Source: Sulfurimonas sp.
GTDB lineage: Bacteria; Campylobacterota; Campylobacteria; Campylobacterales; Sulfurimonadaceae
Assembly (NCBI GenBank): GCA_026988235.1
Contig: JALSLQ010000035.1
Span: 1 to 49,272, forward strand
Direction of reading: 5' to 3'
DNA length: 49,272 bases
The notes under the pieces are model-generated. The model was not told the origin of the DNA and did not search any database. It was given only the letters and a program-made list of their open reading frames with translations. Of this stretch, positions 44,700-49,272 are shown piece by piece. Made by a program: the position numbers and the translations under genes. Position 1 is the first letter of the stretch. Each line of letters opens with the position of its first letter.

Positions 44700-46838
44700 C
44701 TACGCTAACGCTAAGTTCCCTTCAGCAGGGAGCTTATGCAACTTTGTTGTGTTTTCATATTCATGTATCAGTTCTTCGTCACATTTTGGACAGTATTCGT
44801 GTTCTCCTGAAAGATACCCGTGTTTTGGGCACACTGAGAACAGAGGTGTAACCGTAATATAGGGTAGCCTGAAATTCGTAATGACATTTTTTACCAGTTT
44901 ACGACAGGCTTCTGTTGAGCTAAGCCGTTCTTGCATGTAAAGATGCAGTACCGTTCCTCCGGTATATTTTGTCTGCAGATCATCTTGCAGTGTCAGTGCT
45001 TCAAAGGGATCGTCCGTCAGACCGACAGGAATTTGTGAAGAGTTTGTATAGTAGATGTTTTCATCCATCCCAGCTTGTATGATGTTGTCGCCGTATCGTT
45101 TTTTGTCTTCTTTTGCAAATCTGTAGGTTGTTCCTTCTGCCGGAGTGGCTTCGAGGTTATAAAGATTGCCTGTTTCTTCTTGAAATACAATCATTCTCTC
45201 CCTAATATGATTTAAAATTTCAGTGGCAAAATCAATCCCTTGCGTAGAACTGATGTCATAAACGCCACCCGTAAAATTTAAAATCATTTCATTCATTCCA
45301 TTCACCCCGATAGTAGAAAAATGGTTTTTAAATCCTGGCAAATACCTTTTTGTGTAAGGAAAAAGCCCTCTGTCATACATCTCTTGAATAAAAACACGTT
45401 TTTTCTCCAAGGTAGATTTTGCATACTCCATTAACTCATCAAGTCGCCTCAGTAAAGAGGACATATTTCCTTTATGTAAAAAGCCAAGCCGTGCCATATT
45501 TATGGTGACAACCCCTATGCTTCCCGTCATTTCTGCACTGCCAAACAGGCCACCGCCTCGTTTAAGAAGTTCTCTTAAATCAAGCTGTAGTCTGCAACAC
45601 ATACTTCGGACATGTCCCGGTTTATAGGCTTCTTCGTTTGCTATAAGCTCTCCGTTTTTGTCGCGTTTATATTGGCTCCCTATGAAATTTTGAAAGTAGG
45701 AAGAGCCAATTTTTGCCGTATTCTCAAACAGCAGGTCTGTATTTTCACCGTACCAGTCAAAATCTTCTGTGATGTTGACGGTAGGTATAGGAAATGTAAA
45801 AGGTTGACCGGTTTTGTCTCCTTCTGTCATAACCTCATAGTAAGCTTTGTTGATGATGTGCATCTCTTTTTGAAAATGTTTATAGGTCATACTCATGAGG
45901 GATGAAGCACCCCTCTCTTGTGCTTTGAATCTAAGCTCCGTATCTAAAATATTTGTAAAAAGATGCTCTTGCTTACTCGTTGGAATTTGATCCTTCAAAT
46001 CATCAGGAACATTCCAATCTATAGTGATATTTGTAAAAGGTGATTGTCCCCATCGAGCAGGAACATTTAAGTTGTATATGAAACTACGAATACTTTTTTT
46101 TACCTCCTTATATGAAAGTTGATCCTTAAAAAGATAAGGTGCCAGGTATGTGTCAAATGATGAAAAAGCCTGTGCCCCTGCCCACTCACTTTGTAAAATA
46201 CCTAAAAAATTTGCCATTTGCCCAAGCGCTTCCCTGAAATGCTTTGGCGCATCGCTTTCCACTCTTCCCCGTACTCCGTTAAATCCTTCATCCAGAAGAA
46301 CCCTCAGACTCCAGCCGGCACAATAACCGGTCAAACAGTCCAAATCGTGTATGTGATAGTCCCCGTTTCTATGCGCATACCCCTCTTCTTTAGAGTAAAT
46401 TTTGTCAAGCCAGTAGTTTGCTATAACTTTGCCTGCCGTATTGTTTACAAGCCCTGCATTTGAATAGCCTGTATTGGAGTTTGCTTTGATTCTCCAATCA
46501 CTCCCATTTATATACTCTTCTATCGTTTGTGTAGAGTTAATATAAGTAGTGTCATCTTCAAGTAATTTGTCTCTTTGAAGTTTATGCAAATGTCTATAGA
46601 GTATAAAAGAGCGCATAACATCAAAATATTTTGCTTTGTATAACTCTTTTTCTATAATGTCTTGTATGTCTTCTACGGCAACAACCCGTTTAGTGTCGAG
46701 TTTTTGTATAACTTTTATGTATACTATTTCATCAAAATCTACATGTTCACTTAAAAAAGCTTTTTGAATGGCATCTTCTATTTTATAAGAGAAAAATTGT
46801 TTATAAGAACCGTCTCTTTTTAAAATATACTCTACCAT
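44700..46838 (-). CDS. nrdD: Class III ribonucleotide reductase NrdD without glycyl-radical loop
   Basis: Large subunit of anaerobic ribonucleoside-triphosphate reductase, 712 residues from ATG 46838 (AAGGAGA site; the track start lacks one). An ATP-cone occupies about 1-85 (EYILKRDGSYKQFFSYKIEDA), then the ten-stranded barrel with HDLDCLTGYCAGWSL and the active-site cysteine region RSMCCRLQLDL. Near the end is a zinc-type site, CPKHGYLSGEHEYCPKC. The chain then continues with an unrelated tail and stops, with no RVxGY glycyl-radical motif. That motif is on the next ORF. Together with nrdG this is an anaerobic dNTP-synthesis operon. Confidence 0.93.
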   Translation of the reverse strand: MVEYILKRDGSYKQFFSYKIEDAIQKAFLSEHVDFDEIVYIKVIQKLDTKRVVAVEDIQDIIEKELYKAKYFDVMRSFILYRHLHKLQRDKLLEDDTTYINSTQTIEEYINGSDWRIKANSNTGYSNAGLVNNTAGKVIANYWLDKIYSKEEGYAHRNGDYHIHDLDCLTGYCAGWSLRVLLDEGFNGVRGRVESDAPKHFREALGQMANFLGILQSEWAGAQAFSSFDTYLAPYLFKDQLSYKEVKKSIRSFIYNLNVPARWGQSPFTNITIDWNVPDDLKDQIPTSKQEHLFTNILDTELRFKAQERGASSLMSMTYKHFQKEMHIINKAYYEVMTEGDKTGQPFTFPIPTVNITEDFDWYGENTDLLFENTAKIGSSYFQNFIGSQYKRDKNGELIANEEAYKPGHVRSMCCRLQLDLRELLKRGGGLFGSAEMTGSIGVVTINMARLGFLHKGNMSSLLRRLDELMEYAKSTLEKKRVFIQEMYDRGLFPYTKRYLPGFKNHFSTIGVNGMNEMILNFTGGVYDISSTQGIDFATEILNHIRERMIVFQEETGNLYNLEATPAEGTTYRFAKEDKKRYGDNIIQAGMDENIYYTNSSQIPVGLTDDPFEALTLQDDLQTKYTGGTVLHLYMQERLSSTEACRKLVKNVITNFRLPYITVTPLFSVCPKHGYLSGEHEYCPKCDEELIHEYENTTKLHKLPAEGNLALA

Positions 46839-46866
46839 TGTTGTTCTCCTTAAGTGATGACGACAG

Positions 46867-46872
46867 TGTATA
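46867..46872 (-). promoter_or_regulatory. Possible -10 box of nrdD
   Basis: On the minus strand, TATACA lies 28 bases before the nrdD ATG, with a T-rich stretch upstream. A direct repeat, GTCAC-TTTTGT-GTCAC (46904-46919), lies further up and may be an operator. Both are suggestions from sequence alone. Confidence 0.3.
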
Positions 46873-46979
46873 AAAAGCGGCATTAAAAATCACTAAGAAA
46901 TTTTGTCACTTTTGTGTCACTCTAGATATGCCAAGTTTCATAAAATGCAAACTTAATAATACTTTTACATTAATTTGTG

Positions 46980-46985
46980 TATAAT
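46980..46985 (+). promoter_or_regulatory. -10 box of the rpmJ-rpsM-rpsK-rpsD-rpoA transcript
   Basis: A perfect TATAAT is preceded by a T-rich stretch and no clear -35 box, usual for this phylum. Initiation near 46992 would place the 5' end only a few bases before the first arm of the leader stem at 46995. Confidence 0.65.
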
Positions 46986-46994
46986 TCTCATCCA

Positions 46995-47101
46995 CTTTAG
47001 CGTTTTAACAAAGATAAAGAGTATTTCTACCTATATACTTATATATAGATAAAAGTATTGGCAGATAAAAATATATAGCCTTCTGCCTGAAAACGCTAAA
47101 G
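46995..47101 (+). ncRNA. Structured leader of the rpmJ operon
   Basis: CTTTAGCGTTTT (46995-47006) pairs perfectly with AAAACGCTAAAG (47090-47101). Inside are two further hairpins: CTATATA/TATATAG (47031-47037 with 47042-47048, four-base loop) and GGCAGA/TCTGCC (47060-47065 with 47082-47087). The predicted shape is a three-way junction closed by a 12-base stem, starting at the presumed transcript end and finishing 24 bases before the rpmJ ATG. An r-protein (S4 or S13) autoregulatory leader is the natural hypothesis. Confidence 0.6.
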
Positions 47102-47124
47102 AGAATGAATAACAAGGACTTACG

Positions 47125-47238
47125 ATGAAAGTAAGAGCTTCAGTAAAAAAAATGTGTGATGACTGTAAAGTTGTCAAAAGAAGAGGTATTGTAAGAGTAA
47201 TCTGCAAGAATCCTAAACATAAACAGAGACAAGGATAA
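47125..47238 (+). CDS. rpmJ: 50S ribosomal protein L36
   Basis: A 37-residue ORF, below the track limit. [20 protein letters not shown] with the zinc ligands Cys11, Cys14, Cys27 and His32 makes it the zinc-binding (C+) L36. An AAGGA site lies nine bases before the ATG. rpsM follows after two bases. Confidence 0.96.
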
Positions 47239-47240
47239 CC

Positions 47241-47603
47241 ATGGCTCGTATTTCTGGTGTAGATTTACCTAAGAAAAAGAGAATAGAGTATGGCTTAACA
47301 TACATCTATGGTATTGGTCTTCATACTGCTCGTCAAATATTAGACGCAACAGCTATAGACTATAACAAAAGAGTTTTCGAATTAAACGAAGAAGATGTAG
47401 CCGTTATTACAAAAGAAATCCGTGAAAACCATATGGTTGAGGGTGATTTGCGTAAAAAAGTTGCTATGGATATTAAGGCACTTATGGATTTAGGTTCATA
47501 CCGTGGTCTCCGTCACCGTCGTGGTCTTCCATGCCGTGGTCAAAAAACTAAGACAAATGCGCGTACTCGTAAGGGTAAACGCAAAACTGTCGGCGCAGCG
47601 TAA
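47241..47603 (+). CDS. rpsM: 30S ribosomal protein S13
   Basis: Small-subunit head protein contacting P-site tRNA, 120 residues. It starts [20 protein letters not shown] and ends with [18 protein letters not shown], as expected. Confidence 0.97.
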
Positions 47604-47614
47604 GGAATTATAGT

Positions 47615-48007
47615 ATGGCAAAAAGAAAAGCTGTTAGAAAAAAAGTAATAAAAAAGAATATATCTCGTGGTATTGTTCATATTGCAGCATCATTCAATAA
47701 TACATTAGTAACTATTACTGATGAAATGGGTAATATGATTGCGTGGAGTTCAGCAGGAAGTCTTGGTTTCAAGGGTTCTAAAAAATCAACTCCATTTGCT
47801 GCACAAGCAGCTGTTGAAGATGCAATTGCAAAAGCACAAGTACATGGCATAAAAGAACTTGGTATTAAAGTTCAAGGTCCTGGTTCTGGTCGTGAAACTG
47901 CAGTAAAAGCTGTTGGAGCTATCGAAGGAATCCGTGTTACATTTATGAAAGATGTTACACCATTACCACACAACGGTTGTCGCGCGCCTAAGCGTCGTAG
48001 AGTTTAA
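47615..48007 (+). CDS. rpsK: 30S ribosomal protein S11
   Basis: Platform protein of the small subunit, 130 residues, with [17 protein letters not shown] and the C-terminal [12 protein letters not shown]. Normal spacing within the alpha-operon genes. Confidence 0.97.
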
Positions 48008-48018
48008 GGAGATTACTG

Positions 48019-48645
48019 ATGGCAAGATATAGAGGTCCAGTAGAAAAAATCGAAAGAAGATTTGGAGTAAGCCTTAACCTAAAAGGTGAGCGTCGTTTAG
48101 CAGGAAAATCTGCTTTAGAGAAGCGTCCTTACGGTCCAGGTCAACATGGTCAGCGTCGTAAAAAAGTTTCTGAGTATGGTTTACAACTTAATGAGAAACA
48201 AAAAGCGAAATTTATGTATGGTATTTCTGAAAAGCAATTCCGTGCTTTATTCGTTGAAGCAAAACGCCGTGATGGAAATACAGGTACAAACCTTATTACA
48301 TTAATCGAGCAAAGATTAGACAATGTTGTTTATAGAATGGGATTTGCATCTACTCGTAGATTTGCTCGCCAACTAGTAACACATGGTCATATTTTAGTTG
48401 ATGGTAAAAAACTTGACATTCCTTCTTACCGTGCTAAACCGGGACAAAAAATAGAAGTAAAAGAAGCTAGTAAAACTAACAATCAAATTGTTCGTGCTAT
48501 TGAGCTTACAAACCAAACTGGTCTTGCTCCTTGGGTAGATATTGATGCTGAAAAAGTTTATGGTATCTTTACTCGTCTTCCAGAGCGTGAAGAAGTTGTT
48601 ATTCCAGTTGAAGAACGTTTAATTGTTGAGCTTTACTCGAAATAA
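48019..48645 (+). CDS. rpsD: 30S ribosomal protein S4
   Basis: Primary 16S-binding assembly protein, 208 residues, with [15 protein letters not shown] and an S4 RNA-binding domain around [20 protein letters not shown]. In E. coli S4 represses the alpha operon through a leader pseudoknot; a leader of different shape precedes rpmJ here. Confidence 0.97.
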
Positions 48646-48673
48646 TAATTTACTATAAAAAGGCGTAAAAAAT

Positions 48674-49272
48674 ATGAAGAAGATTAAAACTACTCCACTT
48701 GCTCCCCAAGAGTTTGAGGTAGAACAAATAAGTGAGAATGAAGCAAACATAATGGCATACCCTTTTGAAGTAGGGTATGCTATATCGTTGGCTCATCCAC
48801 TTCGCCGTTTTCTATTAAGCAGTTCAGTTGGGTATGCCCCAATTGCTATTAAAATCGAGGGTGCGAAACATGAGTTTGACTCAGTTCGTGGTATGCTTGA
48901 AGATATTTCAGATTTTATCTTAAATTTGAAAGAGATTCGCTTTAAACTTAATAATGATGCAGCAGAAGCAGAAATTAACTATAGTTTTGCCGGTCCGTGT
49001 ACTATTAAAGGTGCAGATCTTAGCAATGATGAAGTAGAAGTGGTAACACCTGATGCTCCGCTTGCAACATTAAATGAAGATTCAACACTTAACTTTACTA
49101 TTAAAATTGCACAGGGTATTGGTTATGTAGCAAGTGAAGATACTGCAGAGGAAGTTAATGATGATGAGTATATTGCGTTAGATGCGTATTTTACTCCGGT
49201 AAGAAGCGCAACATATAAAATTGATAATGTATTAATAGAAGACAACCCTAACTTTGAAAGAGTTATTATGAA
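48674..49272 (+). CDS. rpoA: RNA polymerase alpha subunit, 3' end outside window
   Basis: The first 199 codons of rpoA, missing from the track because no stop falls in the window. The alpha N-terminal domain begins after [17 protein letters not shown] and includes [20 protein letters not shown], the dimerisation region. A short AAAGGCG site precedes the ATG. The C-terminal domain lies beyond the edge. Confidence 0.95.

Follow-up and report, generated by a model that had tools for sequence, protein, structure and literature searches.

What is the folded RNA that precedes the rpmJ-rpsM-rpsK-rpsD-rpoA operon in this Sulfurimonas assembly, how widely is it kept, and which ribosomal protein (r-protein) might it sense? 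We address these questions starting from the window, by which we mean the whole 49,272-nt stretch of DNA that was analyzed; features lie on its + strand except where stated. The locus opens with a -10 box, TATAAT, at positions 46980 to 46985, recognized in the sequence and kept in its placement relative to the leader in relatives, from which a transcription start at ~46991 to 46993 is predicted. The leader itself extends from 46995 to 47101. Its closing stem, P1, supported by the fold and by covariation within the family, consists of a 5' arm (CUUUAGCGUUUU, 46995 to 47006) and a 3' arm (AAAACGCUAAAG, 47090 to 47101) that form 12 perfect pairs, just as an earlier note on this DNA had described. 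A junction strand seen in the alignments, J1/2 (AACAAAGAUAAAG, 47007 to 47019), leads into the P2 hairpin (47020 to 47059, with 47020 to 47037 paired to 47042 to 47059), which is followed by the P3 hairpin (47060 to 47087, with 47060 to 47065 paired to 47082 to 47087); both hairpins rest on the fold and on covariation. The distance from the 3' end of P1 to the rpmJ ATG (47125) is 23 nt. The rpmJ Shine-Dalgarno sequence, AAGGA, lies 12 nt past P1 at 47114 to 47118. The open reading frame of rpmJ (bL36), the first cistron, occupies 47125 to 47238, and the rest of the operon (rpsM, rpsK, rpsD at 48019 to 48645, and an rpoA truncated by the end of the window) occupies 47241 to 49270.

On the - strand, the divergent neighbor (44700 to 46883) is a 727-aa open reading frame resembling an anaerobic ribonucleotide reductase, and the operon in the window therefore begins with its own promoter; at Campylobacter-type loci, unlike the window, infA precedes the leader. 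The earlier note had also proposed checking that transcription does not start downstream of the first P1 arm. In most Sulfurimonadaceae a near-consensus -10 box is found 28 to 33 nt 5' of P2, and this position places the inferred start upstream of that arm. In some Sulfurimonadaceae (loci L046, L122, and L010), J1/2 could form an extra small hairpin upstream of P2 (AAC/GUU or CAC/GUG, longer in L046), which is absent from most of the family, including the window. The MAG additionally contains a second alpha-operon copy with its own leader (G000:C43:10216-10879), and the ~82% DNA identity between the copies indicates that the assembly mixes two Sulfurimonas-like genomes.

One predicted fold alone can mislead, particularly in AT-rich sequence, where a stable structure might arise by chance. 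In isolation, the leader folds at -29.6 kcal/mol into the three-way junction with two inner hairpins that had been reported, compared with -13.8 ± 2.9 kcal/mol for dinucleotide shuffles (z = -5.5, with 0 of 200 shuffles as low); tested with its flanks, it gives z = -3.85. Compensatory change points the same way, both within the family and across the order. In an alignment of 24 Sulfurimonadaceae in which P1 was aligned and 32 pairs were scored, ~92.7 to 92.8% of cells pair, and double-sided changes occur at 15 of the 32 pairs versus 8.7 in shuffles. Six of the 12 P1 pairs show such changes (for example, GCG/CGC in the window versus CUG/CAG in relatives).

For the wider comparison, regions upstream of rpmJ were taken at 240 loci of the order Campylobacterales. 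In the P2-P3 domain of 64 diverse sequences from the order, double-sided changes occur at 19 of 21 pairs, comprising all 13 modelled pairs of P2 and 6 of the 8 pairs of P3, whose remaining two are invariant (a GG at the opening of the hairpin and a CC at its close). Double-sided cells number 331 versus 99 in shuffles; when the P2-P3 partner is slid by one base, pairing falls from 92.5% to about 50%. Under a tree-based null that uses a FastTree tree and parsimony substitution counts, our own approximation of the R-scape test, 11 of the 21 pairs are significant at E < 0.05; the top eight column pairs by score are all pairs of the structure. Outside the window's family, cognate arms of P1, P2, and P3 pair better than arms swapped between sequences (0/2,000 permutations for each stem), and cognate arms likewise beat swapped arms inside it. 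The search for compensatory changes in Campylobacterota that the earlier note had suggested thus comes out in favor of the structure. These data indicate that the leader fold is under selection; the z score of -5.5 and the extensive compensatory change refute a chance fold, which no result of the analysis favors and which retains a negligible probability.

The structure is not confined to Sulfurimonas. A covariance model (R1) with other Sulfurimonas inside its training set and the window outside it recovers the window at 36.3 bits (E = 6e-6). The same model matches 172 of 298 sampled genomes of the phylum, nearly always once each, and this number is a lower bound because the strict filters miss many Sulfurimonas in which direct inspection finds the leader. 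The best 30 matches all lie upstream of rpmJ, and 86 of 99 chosen loci carry the leader before rpmJ at E ≤ 0.01. Leader-bearing families, assigned to genera through shared contigs, include those of Campylobacter, Arcobacter relatives, Sulfurovum, Sulfurospirillum, and Thiovulum relatives. The leader was not found in five sampled families (f2, f8, f14, f15, and f17), four of which are represented by one locus each, and none of the sampled phylum genomes from outside the order Campylobacterales was shown to have it. The folded RNA is conserved across most of this order, and the earlier observation is more general than stated.

One of the families without the leader, f14, resembles Helicobacter and has another small structure instead. 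This element (CAUAGUCGUUUAGGU...GGAGGACUAUAAACUC) lies about 100 to 260 nt 5' of rpmJ (L025, L224-L227, and L229) and is a hairpin whose AUAAACUCAAUG tail is strictly conserved; it shows little covariation among five sequences, and the one locus searched has no Rfam match. It is possibly a replacement r-protein leader.

The comparison across the order also changes the description of the leader itself. Outside the window's family, the motif reads P1 - GAAG - P2 - GG..P3..CC - P1', and J1/2 is a 4-nt GAAG in the alignments of most families other than Sulfurimonadaceae. In most relatives outside Sulfurimonadaceae, the P2 loop is complementary to a segment 3' of P1, forming a pseudoknot; the three-way junction of the earlier note is upheld, but this additional pairing had been missed. 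The loops vary (GCACC, CCACU, GGCAC, UUUGUGU, and others). In a 36-sequence alignment, the five pseudoknot pairs are 98.3% paired, and four of the five show double-sided change; at one pair, 16 sequences have CG and another 16 have GC. P2 loops swapped between species pair worse (0/2,000 permutations, outside the window's family). Of about 50 short-spacer leaders, 35 have the pseudoknot ending at -21/-22 from the rpmJ AUG, and in most leaders close to rpmJ its end is 8 to 12 nt 5' of the Shine-Dalgarno sequence. The leader is 94 to 484 nt from the rpmJ AUG in 26 of 87 nonredundant GAAG-type leaders, with the pseudoknot mostly kept beside it, and these distant leaders do not fit a mechanism that requires a fixed -21 spacing. 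Inserts of ~60 to 400 nt between leader and rpmJ occur in several families (L014, L016, L017, L037, L043, L094, L104, and others), and many hold a recurrent hairpin-like unit, TCACC..GGTG.AGCTTTAGTGA, with ends able to pair; the genome of the window does not contain the strict pattern of this unit.

In the window's family, no pseudoknot is detectable (P2-loop permutation test, 236/2,000 with two misassigned sequences excluded). No pairing of J1/2 with the 3' side was found there either, and pairing of J1/2 with the P3 loop is weak (12/2,000). Because the pseudoknot goes undetected in this family, the long and perfect P1 at the 5' terminus seems to be its own variant, standing in the pseudoknot's place. 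The 12-bp stem of the earlier note is real, and it represents the form that a wider class takes in Sulfurimonadaceae. Such a stem could also be read as a 5'-end stability element in which P1, needing no protein ligand, shields the mRNA from RppH and from 5'-exonucleolytic decay by RNase J; in the window, P1 does begin only a few bases from the predicted transcription start, and RNase J is the major ribonuclease of the related Helicobacter pylori (PMC8322730). A plain hairpin would suffice for that role, however, and the covariation in P2 and P3, the invariance of GAAG and of GG/CC, and the fixed-distance pseudoknot would be left unexplained, which makes this explanation improbable. The MFE fold of the window further contains a tentative hairpin around the rpmJ AUG (CUUAC-GAUGAAA-GUAAG, 47119 to 47135). 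Its cognate arms pair significantly better than noncognate arms outside the window's family (0/2,000) but not within it (137/2,000); other versions are ACUUUC/GAAAGU in Sulfurimonas and UAACC/GGUUA in Sulfurovum.

The earlier note had regarded the leader as separate from the alpha-operon leader of Escherichia coli and as possibly a distinct class of r-protein leader. No Rfam 15 family matches the leader at the gathering threshold, and Alpha_RBS (RF00140) has no match at gathering in the window. A permissive Rfam search of ten loci returned only two Alpha_RBS matches, both subthreshold (21.3 and 18.1 versus 38 bits) and both over the rpmJ/rpsM junction, off the leader. A survey of r-protein leaders (PMC7247131) makes no mention of Campylobacter, Helicobacter, or Epsilonproteobacteria and describes no r-protein leader from Campylobacterota. 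Searches of open-access papers, some on C. jejuni or H. pylori among them, turned up no earlier report of the leader; on that scope, it is likely but not certain that none exists. Given a covarying, conserved structure in a constant place before r-protein genes, and a 5'-untranslated-region location inferred from the near-consensus -10 box at a conserved distance, we interpret the leader as a new class of r-protein leader, that of the rpmJ-rpsM-rpsK-rpsD-rpoA operon, so that the earlier suggestion is right in kind.

In its general logic, the relation to the E. coli leader is closer than had been proposed. The gene set under control would be the same (rpsM-rpsK-rpsD-rpoA-rplQ), S4, the ligand in E. 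coli, is the probable ligand here, and most relatives of the window likewise place a pseudoknot near a ribosome-binding site. The E. coli leader, however, surrounds the rpsM start and forms a nested pseudoknot that comprises the rpsM ribosome-binding site, whereas the Campylobacterales leader lies before rpmJ, not between rpmJ and rpsM, and is a three-way junction with a pseudoknot upstream of the rpmJ Shine-Dalgarno sequence, the copy in the window having no detectable pseudoknot. The claim that the two are far apart in shape thus holds for the fold; their general logic is nearer, since in most relatives a pseudoknot forms a short way 5' of the ribosome-binding site.

Precedent also bears on the ligand. 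S4 is the confirmed ligand of leaders in gammaproteobacteria and Firmicutes and the predicted ligand in Bacteroidia, Clostridia, Flavobacteria, and Fusobacteriales (PMC7247131), and because of this precedent we favor S4, with fair confidence, as the likeliest ligand. The S4 leaders of Clostridia and Fusobacteriales are also predicted for rpsM-rpsK-rpsD-rpoA-rplQ, with S4 assigned by precedent (PMC7247131); they belong to other lineages, and no conserved GUAA or GAAA binding-site motif was seen here, where the conserved unpaired bases are the GAAG of J1/2, a separation that is drawn from the descriptions of those leaders. The B. subtilis-type rpsD leader is likewise an S4-dependent 5' leader that represses translation (PMC10931766, PMC7247131), but it controls a separate rpsD gene, has no pseudoknot, and uses GUAA as a mimic of 16S rRNA. 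The leaders of Bacteroidia and Flavobacteria are lineage specific and without rRNA mimicry, as is the Campylobacterales leader, but they are hairpins before rpsD (PMC7247131) instead of a three-way junction before rpmJ.

The same leader might instead respond to S13, S11, L36, L17, or an S4-containing complex. It stands before rpmJ and rpsM, and rpsD closely follows rpsM in every genome compared and never leaves the operon in the sample, so that gene context is neutral and cannot single out S4 from S13, S11, or L36. Reading the 16S rRNA of four relatives beside the leader revealed no convincing mimicry of the S4 site, and the conserved GUAA of Firmicutes and Fusobacteria S4 leaders was not found by eye in the leader alignments. 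Two short rRNA likenesses, GCGUGGAGGAU versus GCGUGAAGAAU and GCACC/GGUGC of h18 versus the Sulfurovum pseudoknot, were discounted because the pseudoknot sequence varies freely between families. Against another ligand, the 2020 survey lists none of these proteins for this operon, and all known alpha-operon or rpsD leaders have S4 as their ligand or predicted ligand (PMC7247131). We consider a ligand other than S4 a serious but unlikely alternative.

How might S4 act through such a leader? The conserved, covarying junction reaches from the predicted 5' end of the mRNA, or a few bases from it, to a point shortly before the rpmJ ribosome-binding site. Free S4 would bind the junction once its 16S rRNA sites are filled, and bound S4 would keep the leader in its folded state next to where the 30S subunit lands; initiation at rpmJ would slow, and the downstream cistrons would drop through coupling. 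In the window's family, the longer P1 stem would substitute for the pseudoknot. We put the probability of this reading, a previously undescribed class of autoregulatory r-protein leader in which S4 binding slows rpmJ initiation with a coupled fall downstream, at roughly 60%. Many r-protein leaders elsewhere work by transcription attenuation, and the leader-rpmJ distance varies in some clades, as an attenuator might allow; no terminator-like hairpin with a U tract was found in the window region or in the one relative scanned, and attenuation is very improbable.

Returning to translational control by S4, the E. coli protein acts by entrapment, in which pseudoknotted mRNA is trapped with the bound 30S subunit (PMC10931766). 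A pseudoknot abutting the start site at a constant distance suggests a similar logic here. More tentatively, and with rather less confidence than an even chance, we propose that the Campylobacterales leader may be an order-wide, independently evolved class in which, in most families, a pseudoknot at a fixed 21 to 22 nt before the first start codon, close to the border of the 30S footprint, lets S4 trap the initiating 30S subunit, convergent with the E. coli entrapment switch on a different fold, and in which the window's family has swapped the pseudoknot for a long 5'-terminal stem.

The leader is probably a means by which a ribosomal protein, most likely S4, represses its own synthesis. Within the literature covered, it would be the first r-protein leader described in Campylobacterota, and it would add to the known controls of the alpha operon a further one with an unrelated structure, of use in asking how one regulatory link comes to be reinvented. 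Naturally occurring variants that have or lack the pseudoknot, or that have leader-gene gaps of 40 to 480 nt, would allow the mechanism to be dissected before any mutant is designed. Since the leader is present in the family of Campylobacter and another structure in the Helicobacter-like family, these ideas would be testable in laboratory organisms.
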